Virus record (IMG/VR): IMGVR_UViG_3300043410_000242
Location: 1-31,482 of that record
Reading direction: 5' to 3' (one strand)
DNA: 31,482 bases
Source: a virus
The notes below the pieces were generated by a model, which did not search any database, was not told the origin of the DNA, and saw nothing but the letters and a program-made list of their open reading frames with translations. The translations under genes were made by a program, and so were the position numbers. This document shows positions 1,952 through 16,061 of this stretch, in pieces; the first letter of the stretch is position 1; every line of letters starts with the position of its first letter.

Positions 1952-4021
1952 ATGCCTAGACACGATAATAACGACGAACCGCAACGTAGACGCCAACAAG
2001 ACGGTGAAAATCGTCCTCAACGCCCTACCCAAGAGCGTCCTAATATCCCAGGTTTCAATCCCCAAATGCCGGGTGATGCAAACCTACCTGCAGGTCCAAA
2101 TGATCAACCTAGACGTCCAGAACGTCAGCAAGATCAGCCTAACCGTGCCCCAGAATTAAACCGTGCAGCAGGTGACGAAACTCGCCGTGCAGCAGGTAAC
2201 GCTCACATCCCAGATCATATGCGTGATATGCTTAACCGCTTGAACCGTTTAGATCGTCCAGGCGATATTAGCGATGAAGAAGCACGTAGATTAGCAGGAC
2301 TAGACCAAGACGATGCTGAACCAAGACCGCCAGAACTTAACATTGTTCCAGCAGTTACACGTCATGAAGTAGCACGTATTAGTCAAGACATTCAAGCAGC
2401 AGGGCAAGTATATCCAAAATGGCACGGTATTAAGAATCTACCAGGATTCCAAAATCGTCAAATCCGTGGAATGGGTCAAGACCTATTCTCAATGTTTACA
2501 TCAACACCACATCACGATATTCTTACTATTAGCACAATGGCTAACAGTGAGCGTGAAGTTAAAGCAGTATTAGGTTGGTTAAAATCTAATGCAGAAGAAT
2601 TGCCGGAATTAGACATTGATTACAGTGGCTATGGCATGCCTGGATACACTCCAGAGGTGCGTGAGTACAAAACAGAAAATACACGTTTTCACGTTGTTCA
2701 CGATCAAGCAGGATGGTACATCTATGCTTATCCAGAAGGAACAGCAATCGATCATTCTAAGAGCAATGCTTTAGAATACGACGGAGACGACGAATATGAC
2801 GAACCAACACACGACGAATACGGTGCACCAATTAAGAGATTAAAAGAGGAAACTCAAATGACATTCAACAGTTTAAGCGAACAACTTAGATATCTTACTT
2901 CTAAGCTAGACAATTTACAAGAAAGTGAAGCCCAACTAGATGTGCAATTCATTCTAGACGAAGCTATCGATTATGTACTAAGTGAAGCTAGTACATTAAG
3001 TGGCTTGATCAGTAAGTATCCAGGTGGTAAAGAGATTGCAAGTGCGTTGCACAAGCGTCATGAACTAGCTGCTGGTCACAGAACAAGAGGCGGTGAAAAA
3101 GTTGCTCCTCGTGTACGTTTTGGTGCAGGATCAGAATCAGTTGATCCATATTACGAAGAATTAACTGATGTTAAAAACGTTTCCCAAATGATCAAAGCAT
3201 CATATGACAACTACTTAATTTTAGTTGGTCAACGTGGATGCGCTGCTATTAAAGTTAATACAAAAGATTTCCAAGCTCGTAAACAAGAGTTTGAAAAGAG
3301 ACGTACAAACCAAGGTAAAGAATATAACTCTGCTACAGACACTAAGTTACAATGGACTGTTTTATGGTCTACTGGTGCAGGTGTTGATGAAGAAGTTGCT
3401 AAGTATCGCATGGGCCGTACAGACCGCACAGGCGGTGAAGAAGGTACAACAGGTACACCAAACCTATTAAACGTTTTAGGTGAGCGTATTGGATTTGTTG
3501 GTTATCCAATTAAGATTTTCAAAGCAATTCAAGCAGCAGATCGTGGTGTTAAAACTGCTCGTCAAGCAATGAAACCACAAGATGCTCAAGGCGAAATCAG
3601 CAACGGTCAAATTGCTAAAGTTATTCAGCCAATCATTGGTAACATGGTTAACCGCGCACTTGGTAACATTATGAATAAGGCTAGCAGATTGAGCCAAGCT
3701 GGTAACTTCTCCCAAGCACAAGCACTTGCAAAATCTGGTGAAAGACTACAAAAACTAGCAACAGCAATGGATACATCAAATCCAGACTTTACGTATACTG
3801 ACCCTGACGATTATCAATATAGATACAATCGCGGACCAATGGAAGTTTATTGGAAAGCAGTTGACCGTGCAGTTGGTACAATGACTGCTGGAAAATCTGA
3901 AGAGGAAGCACAACAAGTTAAAAGAGCATTGGTGAATCGCGGAGCACAAAACGTTCCAATATTCAGCGAGTTTATTAACTTAGTAAAAGACAACTTGCTA
4001 GCAGCAGGTACATTGGAGTAA
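1952..4021 (+). CDS. large uncharacterised phage protein with disordered N-terminus, probably virion-associated
   Basis: Protein of 689 residues that I cannot assign to a family. Residues 1-125 are low-complexity and rich in Arg, Pro, Gln, Asn and Asp, clearly disordered. Residues 140-265 look folded (KWHGIKNLPGF..., GWYIYAYPEGTAIDHS). An acidic linker (DGDDEYDEPTHDEYG) follows near 270-290. A helical region starts at M303 and holds several (L/I)xE|(S/A) tripeptides of the prohead-protease type (LQES, LDEA, LSEA). The remainder is charged and mostly helical. Good AAGGA ribosome-binding site at 1941. The next gene starts 2 bases after the stop, so they form a pair. Size, disorder and the candidate late promoter suggest a late, possibly packaged protein; this is inference. 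Confidence 0.8.
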   Translation: MPRHDNNDEPQRRRQQDGENRPQRPTQERPNIPGFNPQMPGDANLPAGPNDQPRRPERQQDQPNRAPELNRAAGDETRRAAGNAHIPDHMRDMLNRLNRLDRPGDISDEEARRLAGLDQDDAEPRPPELNIVPAVTRHEVARISQDIQAAGQVYPKWHGIKNLPGFQNRQIRGMGQDLFSMFTSTPHHDILTISTMANSEREVKAVLGWLKSNAEELPELDIDYSGYGMPGYTPEVREYKTENTRFHVVHDQAGWYIYAYPEGTAIDHSKSNALEYDGDDEYDEPTHDEYGAPIKRLKEETQMTFNSLSEQLRYLTSKLDNLQESEAQLDVQFILDEAIDYVLSEASTLSGLISKYPGGKEIASALHKRHELAAGHRTRGGEKVAPRVRFGAGSESVDPYYEELTDVKNVSQMIKASYDNYLILVGQRGCAAIKVNTKDFQARKQEFEKRRTNQGKEYNSATDTKLQWTVLWSTGAGVDEEVAKYRMGRTDRTGGEEGTTGTPNLLNVLGERIGFVGYPIKIFKAIQAADRGVKTARQAMKPQDAQGEISNGQIAKVIQPIIGNMVNRALGNIMNKASRLSQAGNFSQAQALAKSGERLQKLATAMDTSNPDFTYTDPDDYQYRYNRGPMEVYWKAVDRAVGTMTAGKSEEEAQQVKRALVNRGAQNVPIFSEFINLVKDNLLAAGTLE
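2845..2860 (+). promoter_or_regulatory. candidate internal ribosome-binding site and in-frame start
   Basis: AGAGGA at 2845-2850 is followed after 7 bases by an ATG at 2858 that is in frame with the surrounding gene (residue 303). It would give a 387-residue C-terminal product starting MTFNSLSEQL, exactly where the acidic linker ends and the helical region begins. Spacing and sequence match a good Shine-Dalgarno site better than many gene starts in this window. Use is inferred. Confidence 0.4.
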
Positions 4022-4022
4022 C

Positions 4023-5150
4023 ATGTTTCTTAGAGAATTATTTGAATCGGCAATACTTCTCGAAGCAACTAGGGGCGGACAGCAAGTATTAGCTAACAAG
4101 AACTTAGTTGCAGGCGTTGCTGACCAACTAAAGGACGATATTTCTGTCCCATCTGCACAACGCAATGCGTTTAGAAAAATGTCAGATGAGCAAGTAGCTC
4201 AATGGTTTGTTGACAAGATTGAAGCTGTTGATCGTGCAGGTTACCGCGGTGTTACATTTGCACGTGATGGTCAATTTATTAATTGGTTAGCAGTTAACTA
4301 TTCAAACGGCATGGACATTTGGGAAGACATTGAAGACGTTTACCCAATGGCTATGAGTCAATACGTTGCTCTTAAGAATCGTCGTAGACCAGATGGTCAA
4401 CCGTACTTAGATCCTAAACACAACGATTATCAAAAGTTTAAAGGCGTTAAAGTCTTAGCAAACTACATGATTACACACTACGCAGGTGTGCTTGAACAAA
4501 TTGAACAAGCTGCACAAAGAGCTGCCGCTGATAAGAAGTGGAGAGCAACTGCTCGTAGTATTAAGATTGTTGATAACGAAGATTACGATATTTACATTTT
4601 AAGAAACAGATCAGCTGCTGTATTATTTGGTAAGAGCTGCTTATATTGTACAGCTAACGAAAATAATGCTGAACGCTTTGAAATGTATAGTAAAGAACAA
4701 CCATTGTTTGGTATGGTTCCTAAGAAGCTTCCTAAATTGAAAGATCAGCGTGCTCCTGCAGATGCTGAGCCTAACATTGTACAAAAGTTCCAGTTTGATG
4801 CAAACCCAAGAGGTTACGGAGATGGTGGACACGAGTTTAAAGACTACTTAAATCACAACGTTCCTGTAGCTCGTATTAGAGAAACATTCCCATACTTAAA
4901 GTATGATATCGTTCAAGGTATGAAAGCTCACGCAGAAGAGATTGAAAACAATCCAGAGGAAGTTGATAAGAACGGCGAACCTATTCCACAGAAAGTGTAT
5001 AGCGTAGAATCTGCTATTCGCAAGTTTGTAGATGAGTTTGCACCTTACTTAACTGACAAGAGAAGACCTGCTCCTAAGCCAGAGGGCGAAGAAAATCCAG
5101 AAGCTGTACCACAAGCAGCACCTCCGGATAACCAACTACCACCGGCATAA
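4023..5150 (+). CDS. uncharacterised protein with capsid-targeting-like N-terminus and CTA motif
   Basis: Protein of 375 residues. The start, MFLRELFESAILLEA, resembles the capsid-targeting sequence of T4 internal head proteins and contains LFE|S, a plausible prohead-protease site. Around residues 195-225 the segment FGKSCLYCTANENNAERF, then MYSKEQPLFGMV, resembles a motif of uncharacterised phage proteins of the form G-x-x-T-x-W-C-T-A ... N-x-F-x-x-Y ... G-P-L-(Y/F), with Tyr in place of the Trp. The C-terminal 40 residues are Pro/Glu/Ala-rich. Preceded by GGAG and only 2 bases after the stop of the previous gene; followed at once by a strong terminator. Likely a late protein carried in the head, with unknown activity. 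Confidence 0.8.
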   Translation: MFLRELFESAILLEATRGGQQVLANKNLVAGVADQLKDDISVPSAQRNAFRKMSDEQVAQWFVDKIEAVDRAGYRGVTFARDGQFINWLAVNYSNGMDIWEDIEDVYPMAMSQYVALKNRRRPDGQPYLDPKHNDYQKFKGVKVLANYMITHYAGVLEQIEQAAQRAAADKKWRATARSIKIVDNEDYDIYILRNRSAAVLFGKSCLYCTANENNAERFEMYSKEQPLFGMVPKKLPKLKDQRAPADAEPNIVQKFQFDANPRGYGDGGHEFKDYLNHNVPVARIRETFPYLKYDIVQGMKAHAEEIENNPEEVDKNGEPIPQKVYSVESAIRKFVDEFAPYLTDKRRPAPKPEGEENPEAVPQAAPPDNQLPPA

Positions 5151-5683: not shown

Positions 5684-7117
5684 TTACAAGTCGTCTTGAG
5701 GTAAATTATTAAGTAATTGTCTCAACTTTGAGCTTTCAACGTTGGCTTTTACTTTAGGGATGGGTGCTTGACTGTTTGGATTGATTTCGCCAGTTGCTTG
5801 ATCAACTTCGACAGTTTGTCTATTTTTAATGCTAGCCAAAAGACTTGACCCTGCACTTTGACTACCACTGCCATAGCTATCTTCTTCAGCAAGGTCAGTA
5901 ATACGCAATGTATCAACGTTAAACTCTAAGTCAATCTTCATACCAACACCGCTTGAACTACGTGTTTTCATTAGCTGGATTTGATAACGTCCACGCTCAC
6001 GCATAGCCCTTGATGTAAAAATACCAATAACGTTGTCAGCAGTTTGAATCTTAGACAAACCACCTGAAATGTGACTATGATCGAATTCAACTTCTTCAAC
6101 AGCACTACGGTTTAACTGTGACGCAGTAACAAAGATACATTGTTTTTCCATTGCTAAGTTACGTAGTTCTTCGGATACAAACTTATCTTTAATAAACAAG
6201 TCTGCTGGACTAATCTTTTTACTAATAGGCATTAACAAGTCTAAGTAGTCAACTAGCAATACGTCAACTTTACGACCCATTTTAATTTCATATTCTTTTA
6301 AGTAAGCACGAATGTCGTTTGCTGTTTTACCCGATGGCATATACTTAATTTGAAACTGCCCAGATTTTTTACCTAAAATCTTAACTTTCATTTCAACGTC
6401 ATCAATACTCTTAAACACTTCGCGACTTGGGATTCCAGTCATCATAGAGTCAACACGCATACCTACAAGTTCTTCTGAAAGTTCGAATGTTAAGTACACT
6501 ACATTAAGTCCTGCAAGTGCAAAGTTAACACCTAAATTAGCTAAGAACAACGACTTACCGCCACCCGATGCTGCTGCAAAAATGTTAAGTTCACCGCGGT
6601 TCATACCACCAAACAACTTATCATCTAATGACTTCCAACCAGTAGTAACTTGCCCGTTCTTGTCTTTAATCTTCATTAAACGTGCTCTAGGATCTTCAAA
6701 GTAGTCAGTACCCATATCGCGAGTTAGACCAATTTGTACAGCCTTCTTAATCATTTCCTCTACAGGACCATACTCACCTTTTTCAAGCATGTCTGCTGAT
6801 TCTAGAATTGCTCGCTCTAAGCCTTTGTGTCTAGTAAACGTTTCAAAGTCATTCATTAACCAATCAAAATGTTCTTCACGTAAATCGTGACTTACTTTAA
6901 AATCACTACCACATGCTGCATTAATGATCTCTTCAGTTGGCATTACTGAATGTGATTTAACATATTCATTAATAAATTCTGCAGGTGTTTGAAGTTTACG
7001 ATCAAACAATGTATGATCAAAGATGCTTTGACAACGACTAAATGTTGCTGCATCTGCCAGCATCATTTCTAAATATAACTTTTGTATTTCGTATCCGTAA
7101 TCTGTATTCTGCTTCAT
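5684..7117 (-). CDS. 41: replicative DNA helicase gp41 (DnaB-like)
   Basis: Protein of 477 residues, close to the 475 of T4 gp41. It unwinds DNA 5'-3' as a hexameric ring on the lagging strand and works with primase gp61. The N-terminal helical domain spans about residues 1-150. The RecA-like motor follows with Walker A ASGGGKSL (183-190), the glutamate segment VVYLTFELSEE, Walker B LLVDYLDL (287-294), the sensor VTASQLNRS, and arginine-finger-type R residues in the MKTRSSSG region. A 60-residue Ser/Gln/Asn-rich tail follows. Last replisome gene of the cluster; upstream lies the carbamoyltransferase gene with a gap of about 20 bases. Start ATG at 7117 has only a weak AATAAG ahead of it. Confidence 0.95.
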   Translation of the reverse strand: MKQNTDYGYEIQKLYLEMMLADAATFSRCQSIFDHTLFDRKLQTPAEFINEYVKSHSVMPTEEIINAACGSDFKVSHDLREEHFDWLMNDFETFTRHKGLERAILESADMLEKGEYGPVEEMIKKAVQIGLTRDMGTDYFEDPRARLMKIKDKNGQVTTGWKSLDDKLFGGMNRGELNIFAAASGGGKSLFLANLGVNFALAGLNVVYLTFELSEELVGMRVDSMMTGIPSREVFKSIDDVEMKVKILGKKSGQFQIKYMPSGKTANDIRAYLKEYEIKMGRKVDVLLVDYLDLLMPISKKISPADLFIKDKFVSEELRNLAMEKQCIFVTASQLNRSAVEEVEFDHSHISGGLSKIQTADNVIGIFTSRAMRERGRYQIQLMKTRSSSGVGMKIDLEFNVDTLRITDLAEEDSYGSGSQSAGSSLLASIKNRQTVEVDQATGEINPNSQAPIPKVKANVESSKLRQLLNNLPQDDL

Positions 7118-7135
7118 CTTATTATTATATAATTC

Positions 7136-8086
7136 TTAAACGTTAATTGCTATATGTTTGGCTTCGCCGTGTTGCCAATCTATTCTGTATTTCTTATGGT
7201 ATAATACTGAGCCAATTGCACTACTAGGATCACCCGGTTGTGGCAAGCTCCAACGATATTTAAACTTGTCTTCAACTACTGCTTTATTGGTTGCTGAGTT
7301 CATAGCACAACCGCCCATATAAACTAAACAGTCTGCTCCTGTTAAATTTTTAGCTGTCTTCATAACCATGTCTACTTGTTCTGTAAACACAGTTTGTACG
7401 GCAGCGGCAATGTCACATTGGTCCTGCAAGTTATATATTTCGTGTGGCCAATCATTAATGCCGCGGTGCATGTTTTTATGGGCATATACTAGTGTGCCCA
7501 TGTATTCTTTTACATCAAAGTAAACGCGATCTGGATCACCTTGTTCAGCCATTTGCTGTAATAAGTGTTCCTGTTTAATTGGTTCTAGTCCTACTAGTTT
7601 TGTAAATGCACTATAAAATAATCCTAAGCTATGTGGATAACTTTTGTGCCAAACCTTTTTAATTTCACCATGCTTTGCTTCCCATATACTAGCACAGTCA
7701 AACTCGCCTATTGCATCAAGTACCACAATAGCACAATGATTAAAAGGGCTAGTATAATATCCGGCAGCAGCATGGCTACCATGATGAGGAGTATAAATGA
7801 TAGGAGCATAATTTAATCGTTCTCTTTTAATATATCTACTAGGTAATACATCTGCACTCATGTCAAATGCTGTTTTATACTGCCCAGCATATATCTGTCT
7901 AGCCTTCTTAACCCATGGTCGTTCATACCAATATAACTTATCAGGAGAACCCCAATTAAGTGCTTGTCGTATATGCTCACTAGGAATATTATCAGCCGTA
8001 CTGTGTTGGTAAAATTTTAAGTCGCAATTACTAAACACGGCTAGGCTAGACCCGTGATTAAGTGCGTTTATGCCCCACTCGATCAT
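7136..8086 (-). CDS. NodU/TobZ-type carbamoyltransferase, N-terminal domain only
   Basis: Protein of 316 residues. Motifs of the Kae1-like O-carbamoyltransferase domain are in order: WGINALNHGSSLAV at the start, the metal-binding HHGSHAAAGYY (from 101), VVLDAIGEFDCASIW, SLGLFYSAFTKLVGLEP, YMGGCAMNSATN (256-267) and GDPSSAIG (285-292). NodU and TobZ are about 550-600 residues and also carry a YrdC-like domain that makes carbamoyl-adenylate; that domain is absent here, so the enzyme either uses a separate partner or a different donor. In T4-like phages such genes have been linked to modification of nucleotides or DNA, but the acceptor here is unknown. The ATG overlaps the TGA of the 37-aa gene (ATGA). 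Confidence 0.82.
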   Translation of the reverse strand: MIEWGINALNHGSSLAVFSNCDLKFYQHSTADNIPSEHIRQALNWGSPDKLYWYERPWVKKARQIYAGQYKTAFDMSADVLPSRYIKRERLNYAPIIYTPHHGSHAAAGYYTSPFNHCAIVVLDAIGEFDCASIWEAKHGEIKKVWHKSYPHSLGLFYSAFTKLVGLEPIKQEHLLQQMAEQGDPDRVYFDVKEYMGTLVYAHKNMHRGINDWPHEIYNLQDQCDIAAAVQTVFTEQVDMVMKTAKNLTGADCLVYMGGCAMNSATNKAVVEDKFKYRWSLPQPGDPSSAIGSVLYHKKYRIDWQHGEAKHIAINV

Positions 8087-8196
8087 TTGTAGATAAAAGG
8101 ATCTCGTTTGCGCAATTCTTCCATGCGCTTTTTAAATGCTTTGTGTTCTTGCCACATTCGCCAAGGTTTTAAAATAAAATCAATCAGTTTTTTCAT
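8083..8196 (-). CDS. 37-residue basic conserved-looking phage protein
   Basis: A complete small frame starting MKKLIDFILKPWRMWQEH and ending KKRMEELRKRDPFIYK. Its ATG (8196) lies inside the last codons of the primase gene (17-base overlap) and its TGA overlaps the ATG of the carbamoyltransferase gene (ATGA). This chain of overlaps indicates translational coupling and supports it as a real gene. It fills the only unassigned stretch of the cluster. The sequence is strongly amphipathic and positively charged, with a hydrophobic N-terminal helix and a KR-rich second helix. Small proteins with a similar (F/Y)KKRxEELRKRDPF ending occur in other T4-like phages; function unknown. Confidence 0.7.
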   Translation of the reverse strand: MKKLIDFILKPWRMWQEHKAFKKRMEELRKRDPFIYK

Positions 8197-9190
8197 TAGT
8201 ATCCTTAAACCATTTTTTTGCTCTAAGTTGTATTTTAAGACTGTTAGATTCCTTTGAACTAGTAATTAGCCACAAAGTTGCAAGTCGTCCTAATTTACAC
8301 ATTGCGTCGTTTACGTCTTTAACCCCAGGCGGCCAATTAGGCATACTAACTGACCAACCATATTCTATTGCTTGTTCTAGTGTTGCTTTTCCTGCTTCGT
8401 CTCTATCAGGTACTAGAATAATTTCTCTGCCTAGCTGCTTTAACAGCCAGTTTTGACTGTCTTTAATTTCAGCACCTAGTAACGCACATCCGTCAATACT
8501 TAGCGCATCGAATGGGCCTTCACAAACAATTACGAATTCTCTATCTTGTGTTTGTCTATCTAAATTAAACACATAACCTGGTTGCTGCTCACTTAGGTAT
8601 TTAGGTTGTGCATCGTTAATTGCTCTAGCAGTATATCCAACTATTTTATTATCTTTATAAAACGGAATAATAATTCTGTTTTTATACCCTAGCTTACTTG
8701 ACCAGTAATATGGAAACGCATAAGGATTTAAATGTCTAATGTTTTGCAAGTATGTCATTGCATTAATTAGATCTTGATCAGCGTTTTCCCAACCTTGTAA
8801 TTCAACCCACATTCTCCATTCATCTAAAGTCTTTGCACCGTCTGGCAATGCTTTTTCTTCAAACGTAGGGATTATATTTCTTACTTCAGTATTTGTGTTT
8901 TCATCTAACCTAAGTGCTTCAAGTCGTAATTGACTAATAACATCGTCTGGCATATTGAACCAGCGAAGCAATTTATTCATTTTTTGACTAATATGTCTAC
9001 CAGGTTGCCAGCTTGCTTTAAATCCGCAATTGAAGCAATGATAAGATACTGCATCGCCTTGATTAAAAATTAGGCCGCCACGTTGACGCTTGTCGTCACA
9101 ACAAGGTGCGTTAAATGAGATCCAACCGCTAGGAGTTTGTTTCCTTTTAGGAGGTAAGTATGCTCGTATTGTATCTATGATAAGGCTCAT
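8180..9190 (-). CDS. 61: DNA primase gp61
   Basis: Protein of 336 residues (T4 gp61 has 342). It makes the short RNA primers for lagging-strand synthesis in complex with gp41. An N-terminal zinc-binding region contains C30, C31, H51, C52 and C55 (NAPCCDD...YHCFNCGF); the first cysteine pair is adjacent rather than CxxC. The TOPRIM catalytic core is seen as IVCEGPFDALS (E224, D228) and VPDRDEAGKAT (D262, D264). The segment NRIIIPFYKDNKIVGYTAR is typical of the RNA-polymerase basic patch. It follows the structural-type gene at 9203-10288 by 12 bases and overlaps the 37-aa gene downstream. The ATG at 9190 has AAGG very close to it. Confidence 0.92.
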   Translation of the reverse strand: MSLIIDTIRAYLPPKRKQTPSGWISFNAPCCDDKRQRGGLIFNQGDAVSYHCFNCGFKASWQPGRHISQKMNKLLRWFNMPDDVISQLRLEALRLDENTNTEVRNIIPTFEEKALPDGAKTLDEWRMWVELQGWENADQDLINAMTYLQNIRHLNPYAFPYYWSSKLGYKNRIIIPFYKDNKIVGYTARAINDAQPKYLSEQQPGYVFNLDRQTQDREFVIVCEGPFDALSIDGCALLGAEIKDSQNWLLKQLGREIILVPDRDEAGKATLEQAIEYGWSVSMPNWPPGVKDVNDAMCKLGRLATLWLITSSKESNSLKIQLRAKKWFKDTNEKTD

Positions 9191-10313: not shown

Positions 10314-10688
10314 ATGGCAAAATTAAGAGACGATATAGAACAAAATTTACCGTTTATAAGCGTAATTAACTACGGCGGTGAAGAATACATAGGCATTATT
10401 ATTAACCAGGACCAGTTTGTTACTAGTTTCTACGATTTAAACGCTATAAAGACTCCAGAGGAAAAAGCGTTATTTTTAGAAATTGGCGAAACTTGGTGGT
10501 GGGAAAGTAATCGCCAATTTCCAATTAACATTTTCTGCAGAGAACAGATTTTCCCCTATGCATACGCTGTTAAAACGTTTAATAGCAAGGATGTAAGGAT
10601 TGTACTAGGGCCTGTAGTCAACTTGATGAATTTAACGCTTAAACGAGTTAAACGCAAGTCAGTACAGCTGGTTAGGAAAACTCGGTAG
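10314..10688 (+). CDS. conserved phage protein of unknown function
   Basis: Protein of 124 residues. It starts MAKLRDDIEQNLPFISVIN, then YGGEEYIGIIINQDQ, a WWWESNRQFPINIF segment near residue 60, a KTFNSKDVRIVLGP segment and a basic tail (KRVKRKSVQLVRKTR). The pattern of a beta-rich core with a basic C-terminus resembles a conserved small protein of T4-like cyanophages, but no function is known to me. It is the only plus-strand gene between 5150 and the right edge. It has its own exact late-promoter octamer at 10263-10270, no clear Shine-Dalgarno sequence, and its 3' end overlaps the convergent mini-DnaE gene by 17 bases. Confidence 0.75.
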   Translation: MAKLRDDIEQNLPFISVINYGGEEYIGIIINQDQFVTSFYDLNAIKTPEEKALFLEIGETWWWESNRQFPINIFCREQIFPYAYAVKTFNSKDVRIVLGPVVNLMNLTLKRVKRKSVQLVRKTR

Positions 10689-11250
10689 AAATGCCTTCGC
10701 AGATTAAATTCATCTGCACAACTACTACATGTGCGTATGCAATGGCATGCGCTTTCTTAAAGTAGTAATCACCGTTATCTGGCTTTTCCCAAATCTCTTT
10801 CACAATCTCTGGCCAGCTCTTCCCAATAAGATGTTTCTTCGCTGGGCGAATTAAAGCTAGGCACATTGCTAGTTCCGGGATGCATTTTGGTTTCATTTGT
10901 CTCATCAACCATCCATGCCCATTTACGTGGAACAGTAAATCCGCAAACTCGTCTTGTTGTAGTAGATCCCATAGTGGCTCAGTCTCCATTAATTGCTTGA
11001 GATGTTGTCTATCTCTTACACCTTCGTAAACACTTACATTCAAGAAATCTATCTTGAAATAACCTCTATCTTCTGCTTCTTTATAATCTATAGTGCTAAT
11101 GCCAGTGAATGGATTGTATGGCACAGAAGTACAATACACACCAGTATTGTGCTTTTTAAAAGTGCCATTATCTTCAATAGCTGCTGCTACAGTTTCAAAA
11201 CTTTCTAGTGCTTTATTTCTATCAGCAAAGTCAATATCAATATCTGGCAT
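10672..11250 (-). CDS. miniature DnaE-like (DNA polymerase III alpha) protein
   Basis: Protein of 192 residues. It starts MPDIDIDFADRN, matching the DnaE palm motif PD(F/I)D(V/I)DF...R with the two catalytic aspartates (D3, D5). It continues with HNTGVY (like the KHAGGVV region), GYFKIDFLNVSVY (like GLVKFDFLGL, D68 aligned with the third catalytic Asp), LMRQMKPKCIPELAMCLALIRP (like the MKxLI..P..F.D+.A..AL.RPGP region) and YFKKAHAIAYAHVVVVQ (like FNKSHSAAYAL). DnaE proteins exceed 900 residues; the PHP domain, much of the palm and fingers, and the C-terminal domains are missing. The ATG overlaps the upstream stop (TAATG). Known function: none to me. It may be a degenerate relic, a regulator, or a nucleotidyl transferase. 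Confidence 0.7.
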   Translation of the reverse strand: MPDIDIDFADRNKALESFETVAAAIEDNGTFKKHNTGVYCTSVPYNPFTGISTIDYKEAEDRGYFKIDFLNVSVYEGVRDRQHLKQLMETEPLWDLLQQDEFADLLFHVNGHGWLMRQMKPKCIPELAMCLALIRPAKKHLIGKSWPEIVKEIWEKPDNGDYYFKKAHAIAYAHVVVVQMNLICEGISTEFS

Positions 11251-12133: not shown

Positions 12134-12633
12134 TTTACAATCTTTTTAATTTCAGAATCTTCCATACCGTGACTTTTAGCTAGCTCTTTAAACTCTTTGT
12201 CAGTGATTAATTCTGCTAGCAATTCAACATCACGTTCTTTCATTGTAGGATTCCACTTTAATAACATTGGTAATTTTTTATTAGTAGACGATCTTTTCAA
12301 TGGAATCCATTCGTGAAAAAATGTAGTCTTTCCATCATAGTTACACATACATAACAAGAACCAAAGAAGTTTTGCATCTTCTTTTTGCAACAAGTTCCAG
12401 TTTTTATTGTAGTATTCGTTAACTGCTAAAACATAATGTTCTTGCTGTTCTCGTGTAGGCGCTTTACCTCGTCCGCGGTTTGTTCCTACATTACTAATGT
12501 ATCTGTTAAGATTCCACATGTCGCCTTTAATTTCTTTGCGACCTTCGTCTGTAACAGCATCCCATAAATCTTTAAGATTCATGTCAACTGCTGGAATCAT
12601 GTCCTTGAATAAATCAACGTGCTTGTTCGACAT
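12130..12633 (-). CDS. 62: probable sliding-clamp loader small subunit gp62
   Basis: Protein of 167 residues (T4 gp62 has 187). The order of blocks agrees with gp62 of cyanophage-type relatives: HVDLFKDMIPAVDMNLKDLW at the start, MWNLNRYISN (like the MNPYVVNRFLS block), LAVNEYYNKNWNLLQKEDAKLLWFLLCM (like ANEMNQYP..DG.MQYRFLL), a basic K/R segment after HEWIPLKR, and a terminal helix (SEIKKIVK). It would act with gp44 to load the clamp gp45; neither of those genes is in the window. The similarity is at the level of pattern and is weak, so alternatives remain open. It overlaps the oxygenase gene upstream by 20 bases. Confidence 0.5.
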   Translation of the reverse strand: MSNKHVDLFKDMIPAVDMNLKDLWDAVTDEGRKEIKGDMWNLNRYISNVGTNRGRGKAPTREQQEHYVLAVNEYYNKNWNLLQKEDAKLLWFLLCMCNYDGKTTFFHEWIPLKRSSTNKKLPMLLKWNPTMKERDVELLAELITDKEFKELAKSHGMEDSEIKKIVK

Positions 12634-13249
12634 CTGGTTCTAGTCTCGCATCAAATGCTAATACCATTCTAGTTCCTGTGCCATTCCATGGATAAACAGT
12701 ATGCGGAATGTGACTAGGAAACAAAATAATTGTACCAGCTTGTGGTTTATACGTCCATGTATCGTTCATAACAAACTTTGATACATCCCTTGTTTGTGGC
12801 ATTCTAAATGCTACTTGTGCGTCTGTTGGTTGGCTACCTTCAGCTAATTCCGGAACACTAATATACATATTCCCGCTTAGATTGCCGCCTGGGTGACTAT
12901 GCAATTCTTGATACTGCCCTGGGCCTTGCTTAATAGTCCAAATGCTTGTAACAACAGGCTTACAAAGTTTTAAATCTTCTTTGCCACTTTGTTGTGTAAC
13001 AATTTCCATATAGCCCCTACACATTGTTTCTAGATACTTTACTAGCCAAGTAACGTCAATGTTTAATTGGTTAGGGTATACTTGAATTTGTTGACCTCCC
13101 CTAATACTTAAGAAAGGATTTTCAGAATCGTTAAGTTCTGGATGATCATGCAACTGGTTTGTCAAATTAAAAATTTGACTAAATTCAACTGGCGGCACTT
13201 GGTCAATAGCAATAATTGTTGGTTGAAAGTATGCTATGTGTAGTGTCAT
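12614..13249 (-). CDS. 2OG-Fe(II) oxygenase-like protein
   Basis: Protein of 211 residues. Metal-site candidates are H117 and H119 in ELHSHPGGNLSGNMYI, and H183 in ILFPSHIPHTVYPW; R194 in TRMVLAFD is the probable 2-oxoglutarate ligand. The FPS..PH.V.P phrase is shared with the oxygenases at 1328-1903 and 13490-14086. It is one of two oxygenases surrounding a small gene (13246-13503) within an overlapping series, and its 3' end overlaps the gp62 gene by 20 bases. Substrate unknown. Confidence 0.75.
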   Translation of the reverse strand: MTLHIAYFQPTIIAIDQVPPVEFSQIFNLTNQLHDHPELNDSENPFLSIRGGQQIQVYPNQLNIDVTWLVKYLETMCRGYMEIVTQQSGKEDLKLCKPVVTSIWTIKQGPGQYQELHSHPGGNLSGNMYISVPELAEGSQPTDAQVAFRMPQTRDVSKFVMNDTWTYKPQAGTIILFPSHIPHTVYPWNGTGTRMVLAFDARLEPDVEQAR

Positions 13250-13503
13250 ATTAATTTTTCCTCACTGAGTTTATAGATCATTATAGCACGATCCAATGCT
13301 GATTTTAAAGTGGGATTGGTTTCCGACTTCCTCAAAATGTCTTTCCATAACATTTCTTCTTGGTATTGTTTTTCAACTGCTTCTTTTGACAGTGGATATT
13401 CCATTCCTATAATTTTCCTATCAGTAGTTCCGTATTCTCTAGCATATGTTATGCCAGCAGCACGCTCGTAAATATATGTAGCACCAGGTTTAAGAGATCC
13501 CAT
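13246..13503 (-). CDS. conserved small phage protein of unknown function
   Basis: Protein of 85 residues from the ATG at 13503. This start is chosen because GGAGA lies 7 bases ahead of it, while a longer reading from 13533 has no such site. It begins MGSLKPGATYIYERAAGITY with a conserved-looking motif (LKPGATYIYER..G.TYAR) and ends in a helical segment. Similar small proteins occur in T4-like aquatic phages. No function is known to me. It overlaps the oxygenase upstream by 14 bases and the one downstream by 4 bases; sitting between two oxygenases, it may belong to the same function. Confidence 0.7.
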   Translation of the reverse strand: MGSLKPGATYIYERAAGITYAREYGTTDRKIIGMEYPLSKEAVEKQYQEEMLWKDILRKSETNPTLKSALDRAIMIYKLSEEKLI

Positions 13504-14086
13504 TGCTTTTCTCCGCGGTTGTATTGAACGCAACAGATATGCGTTCTACATCTGATGTGTTTGGTCCAACAGCATGTGGCAAATAACTAGGAAACATAAT
13601 AATAGTTCCTTCGATTGGATCTACTTCTTTTGTTTCGCCAGAATATTCGTTACGGTCTGGAGTTACATTAAGTCCTTCCCATAAGTGTATAGGTGCAGGA
13701 TTAGTTAGATATAACTTGCCACTGCCTTTAGGAACTTGAATGTATAAGCATCCAGAAATAACACCACCGTGAATATGTTGTAAATTAAATGCCCCCGGGG
13801 TGTCATTAATGTTAACCCAGGATTCCATAACTTTTAGGTTTCCTGGCAATCCAATTGATTCTGCAGATTCGTTAACAATATTTGTAATAAAATTAAACAG
13901 TTGTGTAAATCTAGGATCTTCATGTAAAAGCGTTCTGCTATGTTTGCCGTTAACATTTGACCTAACTTCGGGTGGATTATCATTTAGATAATCTTTTAAG
14001 TCAGTAATGAGCTTACCCTTTACTTCTTTAAAGTTAGGCAATGCAATATCCCATATAGGAACGGCAAACAAAACATTAGCTATCAT
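13490..14086 (-). CDS. 2OG-Fe(II) oxygenase (TIGR02466-like)
   Basis: Protein of 198 residues. It has the group's typical start (NVLFAVPIWDIALP), a WVNIN strand, H104 and H106 in LQHIHGGVISGCLYIQVP, H171 in IMFPSYLPHAVGP, and R182 in ERISVAFN. The segment between (GSGKLYLTNPAP) matches the strand-and-turn that follows the metal site in related proteins. The family is well supported; the substrate is not known. Overlaps 14083-14589 by 4 bases upstream and 13246-13503 downstream, so it is translated as part of a tightly packed series. Confidence 0.8.
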   Translation of the reverse strand: MIANVLFAVPIWDIALPNFKEVKGKLITDLKDYLNDNPPEVRSNVNGKHSRTLLHEDPRFTQLFNFITNIVNESAESIGLPGNLKVMESWVNINDTPGAFNLQHIHGGVISGCLYIQVPKGSGKLYLTNPAPIHLWEGLNVTPDRNEYSGETKEVDPIEGTIIMFPSYLPHAVGPNTSDVERISVAFNTTAEKSNGIS

Positions 14087-14591: not shown

Positions 14592-16061
14592 TTATTTTTG
14601 CCAGTCCACTTTCTCAACCGAGAACGGATACTTGGCTTCCTTGTAAAATTTTTTCCTCGTTGTGAGGTGACGCTTTGCGTATTTACAAGTGGACGTAATG
14701 TCCCAGATTTGGACGAAGTCTTTGTCTTCTGCTTTTCTAATGCCTCGCCCAATACTTTGTATAACCCTTGTAAAGCTCTTTCCGGGCTCAAGAAGAACCA
14801 AATTAAAAATACGAGGAATATTAATACCCACAGCGGCCACACCGTAAGTCGCCACAGTAATCTTGTTATCTGAAATTGCATGTTCCTTGTACTCCTCTTT
14901 TCGTTTAGTTCCCTTAACTTCGCCTGAAATGAATGCTGCGTCTGGTATTAACTCTGTTAAAAATTTGCCTGTGTCGATCCTATTAACTAGGATAAGTGTA
15001 TTGCCTGACTCTGATATGCCTTTGATTAAATTTGCTAGGTATGTCATGCGCTCTTTATTAGTAACTAGGTACTTTAGTTCGTCTGCGTATGACTTAAATT
15101 CTGGTAAATCTATTAGTTGTAGTACTTGAATTTGCAATGAACTTAACACACCAATTTGTTGTAAATCGTATGCTGCAATGCCGCCTACTACTGGCCCAAT
15201 GCTTGCAAAAATTGGTGCTGATTCAAATTCTTCTTTTGGAACTGTGCCTGTTAATCCCCAACGAATTGGAGAATTAGCAAAGTTGTGTGTAAGCAGGTTT
15301 TTAAGAACTTCTGCCTTTGCCATATGTACTTCGTCAACAATAACTGTTTCTACACCATGTAAAAACTCTGCTAATGACAACGCTTCTTCAATGTCCCAGT
15401 TCTTAGATTTCTTATCTAGTACGTTAAGACTTTGCCAAGTACAAATAGTGTGTGTATGACCGATCATCTTACGATCGCCAAAATATACACCAACGTCTAA
15501 CCCCACATTTATAAAGTCTTCTTCTGTTTGAGTAACAAGATCTTTGTTAGGAACAATAGTGACTGTACGTCCATATTTTTCTGCACAGTGAGCAAGTGTA
15601 GCAGTCATAATTGTTTTGCCTGCACCTGTTGCTACTTCTTGTAATGCTTGTGTATTAGTGAAAAATCTGTTTACAACCTCAACTTGGTCATCTCGCAACA
15701 TAATAGGTTGACCAGCAAAGCGATGGCCGTCTGGCCATGTTTTTCCCATATCAGCCCAGTAGCTAGCCTTAACTTCTTCAAATTTAATTTGAACAGGTTT
15801 ACGTAAGTCTTCTACTTCATCTATGTCAATATCCATATTAGAAAGTATCTCAAAACACTTTTCTAACTGGCTTAGATAACCATTGCCACCTAACCCAAAC
15901 ATACTAGTTGTGCCATCCCAACGACCTAACTTAAATGCTGGGCGATAACGTGCAGTAGGATCCTCGTACTTAAATGTATTTGCTAATTTTTTACGAGCGT
16001 CTAACGGTAAACCTTCAAACTTAATGTTAACTTCGTCTCTTATTATTAATTTTATTCCCAT
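14592..16061 (-). CDS. uvsW: recombination helicase UvsW (SF2)
   Basis: Protein of 489 residues (T4 UvsW has 503). It remodels branched DNA, drives branch migration and resolves R-loops, moving the phage from origin- to recombination-dependent replication. Domain order: an N-terminal double-stranded-DNA-binding domain (1-110) with the KLGRWDG phrase; motif I EVATGAGKT (142-150); Ia IVPNKDL; motif II VDEVH (242-246); motif III LTGT; and in the second domain NTLILVNRIDTG and motif VI QSIGRGIRK. Overlaps the 396-aa gene upstream by 10 bases, so both are expressed from the promoter at 17249-17277. Confidence 0.93.
   Translation of the reverse strand: MGIKLIIRDEVNIKFEGLPLDARKKLANTFKYEDPTARYRPAFKLGRWDGTTSMFGLGGNGYLSQLEKCFEILSNMDIDIDEVEDLRKPVQIKFEEVKASYWADMGKTWPDGHRFAGQPIMLRDDQVEVVNRFFTNTQALQEVATGAGKTIMTATLAHCAEKYGRTVTIVPNKDLVTQTEEDFINVGLDVGVYFGDRKMIGHTHTICTWQSLNVLDKKSKNWDIEEALSLAEFLHGVETVIVDEVHMAKAEVLKNLLTHNFANSPIRWGLTGTVPKEEFESAPIFASIGPVVGGIAAYDLQQIGVLSSLQIQVLQLIDLPEFKSYADELKYLVTNKERMTYLANLIKGISESGNTLILVNRIDTGKFLTELIPDAAFISGEVKGTKRKEEYKEHAISDNKITVATYGVAAVGINIPRIFNLVLLEPGKSFTRVIQSIGRGIRKAEDKDFVQIWDITSTCKYAKRHLTTRKKFYKEAKYPFSVEKVDWQK

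Follow-up and report, generated by a model that had tools for sequence, protein, structure and literature searches.

Putative C-terminal half of a split minimal DNA polymerase III alpha subunit encoded by a viral genome fragment

Introduction

From the sequences of group 2.2 jumbo phages, Iyer et al. (2021; PMC7824862, section 3.4.1, Figure 3b) described a minimal DNA polymerase III alpha that is split in two, and suggest it as a model for an ancestral Pol III. One of its two parts also appears in genome annotations. CBB_328 of Pectobacterium phage CBB was annotated as "DNA polymerase III alpha subunit" and noted as truncated (PMC5259590), and gp316 of phage Atu_ph07 was listed as a predicted alpha subunit (PMC6102473). 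In the passages concerned, both papers notice this part alone and make no link to the other one. No report of a laboratory test of the split mini-polymerase, either for contact between the halves or for enzyme activity, was found in the literature searched.

Here we analyse a 31,482-base viral fragment (the whole stretch is referred to as the window), which encodes one such part. We call this protein the C-half and its partner the N-half. CBB_328 and Atu_ph07 gp316 are N-half partners of the window protein's family: they represent the half with the GS motif, whereas the window protein is the metal-binding half.

Results

The C-half gene and its boundaries

10672..11250, minus strand: C-half of the putative split mini Pol III alpha (192 aa; phrog_11778 match; AlphaFold2 model)

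The open reading frame starts with ATG and its product begins with MPDIDIDF. A sequence-only reading of the window had proposed that this protein is derived from DnaE, and profile searches bear this out. The top family is phrog_11778 "DNA polymerase" (E 5.4e-69), with residues 3-185 of 192 matching profile positions 8-193 of 197. The DnaE family phrog_405 matches as well, at a weaker E of 1e-9, and the Pfam Pol III finger domain does so below threshold only. In a profile search of solved structures, Pol III alpha is the best match in PDB for both halves (hmmsearch E 9e-4 for the C-half). On these comparisons the reading frame is a real gene and its product is certainly, if remotely, related to bacterial Pol III alpha (DnaE).

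Homologues of equally small size are encoded in 63 isolated phage records, jumbo phages almost throughout, including RaK2, 121Q, CBB, Atu_ph07, Phosso, PA5oct/Paride, SCTP-2 and XaC1. More than 550 related stretches are found in IMG/VR, the closest being 86% identical. The length of the homologues ranges from 182 to 216 aa in 139 extracted genes; most of these start with MPDIDIDF and the remainder have a short leader of about 0-16 residues in front of it. Against eight close relatives, dN/dS of the C-half is about 0.07-0.13, and both halves are under purifying selection. Together with the invariant catalytic residues described below, this agrees with the earlier suggestion that the protein is kept for function.

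At 158 homologous loci, the open frame 5' of the C-half start never exceeds 41 codons (median 4), so the protein truly starts at the DxD motif. The same figures, and the lack of an N-half at any of the 158 loci, rule out that the C-half is a piece of a longer reading frame or that a further DnaE part is hidden upstream of it in the window. In Atu_ph07 (NC_042013) the annotated start of gp074 appears to be too late and leaves out the catalytic DxD; MKNIPDIDIDF is the likely start. The Paride C-half (3983-4585 of the extracted stretch L085) has the C-terminus ...EQEPDPFKLFS; this ending, absent from the other members that were read, may be similar to a clamp-binding tail.

Conserved motifs

All four DnaE-type blocks named in the sequence-only reading (HNTGV, FKIDFL, M+.MKP...ALIRP and FKKAHAIAYA) are present in the C-half, along with the N-terminal aspartates:

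11236..11244, minus strand: D3-x-D5, candidate metal ligands at the extreme N-terminus (PDIDIDF motif)
11140..11151, minus strand: H34-x-x-G37 (HNTG; "HAGG" block of DnaE)
11047..11055, minus strand: K66-I-D68 with the third candidate catalytic Asp (K-F/M-D-F-L block of DnaE)
10837..10848, minus strand: R135-P136-A-K138 ("YRPGP" block of DnaE)
10732..10761, minus strand: F164-K-K-A-H168-A-I-A-Y-A ("FNKSHAAAYA" block of DnaE)

In an alignment of 40 diverse homologues, with identity down to 38%, the invariant residues are D3, D5, D7, H34, G37, K66, D68, R135, P136, K138, F164, K165 and H168. The three candidate catalytic aspartates, D3, D5 and D68, whose retention in the window protein had been noted in the sequence-only reading, are thus retained throughout. 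HMMER aligns the D3-x-D5 region with SMPDIDIDF of M. tuberculosis DnaE1, and the K66-I-D68 block ("GyfkiDll") aligns with "GLLKMDFL" of the same protein in the profile search of solved structures.

The N-half and the junction

The N-half (phrog_11127, about 170 aa) is a second short phage protein, which corresponds to the first palm part of DnaE with the GxGRGSS motif and matches PF07733 above the cut-off. In an alignment of N-halves, its invariant residues are G134, G136, R137, G138, S139, S140, V141, S143 and Y144. In phage CBB it is gp328, and its translation ends ...HNIFWGLGRGSSVSSYCLYLIGLHLVDSIKYELDVNEFLKW*, stopping just short of the point where the phrog_11778 proteins start (...LDWREFLR* // MPDIDIDF...). 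The N-half ends in the same way before the C-half start in Phosso, Atu_ph07, Paride, SCTP-2, XacN1 and CM1. IMG/VR contains 243 stretches related to the N-half; a scan that started from the Phosso N-half gave no match. Among 93 extracted N-half genes, all except an outlier in Bacteroides phage BS-TP1 end with ...EFLR/K/E/N or a near variant. In Vibrio phage 2.275.O, the annotated start of the N-half gene NVP2275O_055 appears to be too late, so that its first part is left out.

In cyanobacteria, DnaE is encoded in two parts with intein sequence at the break, which leads to protein splicing. A split intein was considered for the phage halves and ruled out: N-halves end with EFLR/K and C-halves start at DxDID or a short leader before it, which leaves no space for an intein.

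The sequence-only reading had held that all other parts of the polymerase are missing. This is correct for the PHP domain, the thumb, most of the fingers and the clamp-binding, OB and tau-binding regions. It does not hold for the preceding part of the palm, which carries the GS motif and is encoded by this distant second gene, ending at the junction.

Structure comparison

AlphaFold2 models of the C-half and of the N-half from a 270-kb relative have pLDDT of 90.5 and 91.8, respectively. Residues 1-190 of the C-half model align to residues 400-781 of E. coli DnaE, 461-841 of the Taq enzyme and 971-1358 of PolC (Z 9.1-10.2, rmsd 3.5-3.8). The N-half model aligns to residues 271-393, 291-455 and 817-965 of the same proteins (Z about 8-10), with no match for its first 60 residues; the profile search of solved structures places it at about 322-393 of E. 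coli DnaE. The ranges of the two halves adjoin in each reference chain, leaving a gap of about six residues. By the structural alignment with DnaE, D3, D5 and D68 are predicted to cluster.

About 190 residues of the C-half span about 380 residues of DnaE (some 189 matched and 195 skipped), so roughly half of the corresponding DnaE stretch has been deleted. Judging by sequence, the main losses lie between DxD and the HNTG block and, within the fingers, between IRPAK and FKKAH. In DnaE, the segment between DxD and the HNTG-type block is the thumb. Taken together, the comparisons of sequences and of predicted structures identify the two phage proteins as complementary halves of one family-C palm with the catalytic signatures intact.

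Co-occurrence of the halves and other polymerases

Fifteen large genomes (eleven isolated phages and four IMG/VR contigs) each encode exactly one C-half and exactly one N-half. The two genes are never adjacent in them, the distance being 14 to about 220 kb. Both halves are also found in five longer relatives of the window phage, with C-halves 61-74% identical to that of the window. No N-half or family-B polymerase is encoded in the window itself. Since the window is a fragment, the N-half of this phage is not visible. Several long contigs, none of which is a known complete genome, carry one half only; an N-half with no detectable C-half is present on six contigs of 109-213 kb, which are probably fragments too.

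A family-B polymerase, whose presence had been presumed, is encoded in all 14 large related genomes or contigs. PF07733 matches once per genome, over the first part of the profile only (around positions 11-98 of 260), with no second match in any of the 14 tested. As this single match is the N-half, no full-length DnaE is encoded in these 14 large genomes by this search. One scan of bacterial genome contigs for a fused version returned only 13 loci, with no N-half in the stretches around them. Most are on small contigs whose titles name MAGs from scattered phyla, and these are probably phage contigs binned into MAGs.

Genomic neighbourhood

The C-half gene lies among replication genes:

5684..7117, minus strand: DnaB-type replicative helicase, gp41-like (PF03796, E 2e-19), same replication cluster
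8180..9190, minus strand: DnaG-type (Toprim) primase (PF13155, E 1e-7), downstream of the C-half in the same cluster
10314..10688, plus strand: convergent phrog_11637 gene, conserved neighbour of the C-half
14592..16061, minus strand: UvsW-type helicase (PF04851, E 2e-17; PF00271), upstream of the C-half in the same cluster

The order in the window is UvsW, other genes, the C-half, the convergent phrog_11637 gene, a structural protein, primase and DnaB helicase. The arrangement from UvsW to the DnaB helicase around the C-half is common to the window, RaK2, CBB, XaC1 and others and represents a T4-like replication cluster. The N-half is close to the gp44 clamp loader in most of the genomes studied, with only a few genes between the two in CBB, Atu_ph07, Paride, SCTP-2 and XacN1.

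The phrog_11637 gene is present in the window and in seven phage records, and in the window its 3' end overlaps that of the C-half by 17 bases (10672-10688). In nearly all relatives examined it follows the C-half as a convergent gene within an otherwise co-directional cluster, usually with an overlap of about 4-17 bases, and this tail-to-tail position is kept across highly diverged phages.

The remaining genes of the window include:

7136-8086, minus strand: protein with a carbamoyltransferase N-terminal domain (PF02543, E 1e-25)
395-1057, 1328-1903, 12614-13249 and 13490-14086: four confirmed 2OG-Fe(II) oxygenases (PF13759)

The carbamoyltransferase gene lies between the primase and DnaB helicase genes, which are adjacent in RaK2, CBB, Paride and XaC1. 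Reading of the sequence suggests a fifth, partial 2OG-Fe(II) oxygenase at the window edge (3-395).

Discussion

Possible roles of the two halves

The explanation we favour, and hold to be probable, is that T4-like jumbo phages (group 2.2) distribute a minimal family-C core over two genes, one of them encoding the C-half, and that the halves assemble into one, probably distributive, nucleotidyltransferase. As the sequence and structure comparisons show, the N-half contributes the first palm segment and the GxGRGSS nucleotide-binding motif, and the C-half contributes the reduced fingers and all three aspartates, the two of DxD and D68. The two proteins would associate non-covalently, with no intein involved, and rebuild one pol-beta-like active site, and their complex would perform metal-dependent nucleotidyl transfer on DNA. 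Because the thumb, the PHP domain and the clamp- and tau-binding parts are gone and the fingers are shortened, distributive, short synthesis can be expected next to that of the processive family-B polymerase: the putative complex may fill short gaps, act in repair or assist with one strand. It may do so together with the clamp loader of the phage and the primase-helicase. A point against this explanation is that DNA binding is hard to account for once the thumb and a large part of the fingers have been lost. More tentatively, with somewhat less than an even chance, we speculate that this is a thumb-less family-C nucleotidyltransferase with a single active site assembled in trans from the products of two separate genes, and that its activity, be it filling gaps, synthesising a specific strand or adding to ends, is provided in this form by none of the other known phage and cell DNA polymerases.

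The main rival is an altered nucleotidyltransferase role. The complex could have ceased to be a DNA polymerase and become a specialised nucleotidyltransferase whose pol-beta-like site serves, e.g., to extend DNA or RNA ends without a template or to modify a protein with a nucleotide. Such a change would agree with active-site residues staying invariant despite the deletion of the thumb and a large part of the fingers, and with the family-B polymerase already present in these phages. However, the fingers-block residues R135-P136-x-K138 and F164-K165-x-x-H168 are invariant too and the genes are located among replication genes, and we regard this role as unlikely. It is less likely still that the protein has no catalytic activity and serves the phage replisome in a structural or regulatory role, or that it is a decoy binding host Pol III partners. 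Without a thumb and clamp or tau regions processive synthesis is indeed improbable, but a dead scaffold needs neither the three catalytic aspartates nor the GS motif, which are invariant across phages down to 38% identity, and the DnaE domains that bind host partners are the very parts that were lost by the phage protein. The sequence-only reading implied a C-half that works by itself as a miniature enzyme, and the protein does have all three aspartates and a confident fold of its own. Yet an exactly complementary N-half is encoded in every large genome examined, and a C-half on its own lacks the GS-motif side of the nucleotide pocket, which makes this version very improbable.

If the split core proposed here is active, it would be a very small family-C core with the catalytic centre divided exactly between the nucleotide-binding and the metal-binding motifs. 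It would then reveal the minimal needs of a Pol III-type site, and the reason for which phages that encode a family-B replicase retain a second polymerase.

Comparison with known systems

The split phage form resembles bacterial DnaE (E. coli, Taq, M. tuberculosis) in the order of motifs (GxGRGSxxxS, PDIDIDF, HxxG, KxDFL, RPxx, FxKxHAxxYA) and in the fold of the palm and part of the fingers. Unlike bacterial DnaE, it lacks the PHP, thumb, beta-binding, OB and tau-binding parts and amounts to about 360 aa in two chains, compared with about 1,100 in one.

In phage BS-TP1 (PQ571274), DnaE is also encoded by two genes with the break at the same junction (FERFL // PDVDNDF). Unlike the mini-polymerase halves, it is nearly full-length and includes a PHP domain; it constitutes an independent case. 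The two pieces (read from 2825-4558 of the extracted stretch L099 and from the stretch L260) are separated by a gene for a Dda-like helicase. Extra intein-like sequence was noticed by eye at the break on both pieces; Pfam reported no intein in the first one. The independent split at the same junction offers an origin competing with the ancestral Pol III idea, namely breakage at an intein site.

Since Iyer et al. (2021; PMC7824862) have reported the split arrangement, the window C-half adds to an already described system. It belongs to the same system as their split Pol III alpha, with no difference in kind, and its nearest named relatives are the C-halves of Atu_ph07 and Phosso (about 53% identical). 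To that system the window adds a metagenomic clade, the exact junction between the halves and counts over many genomes.
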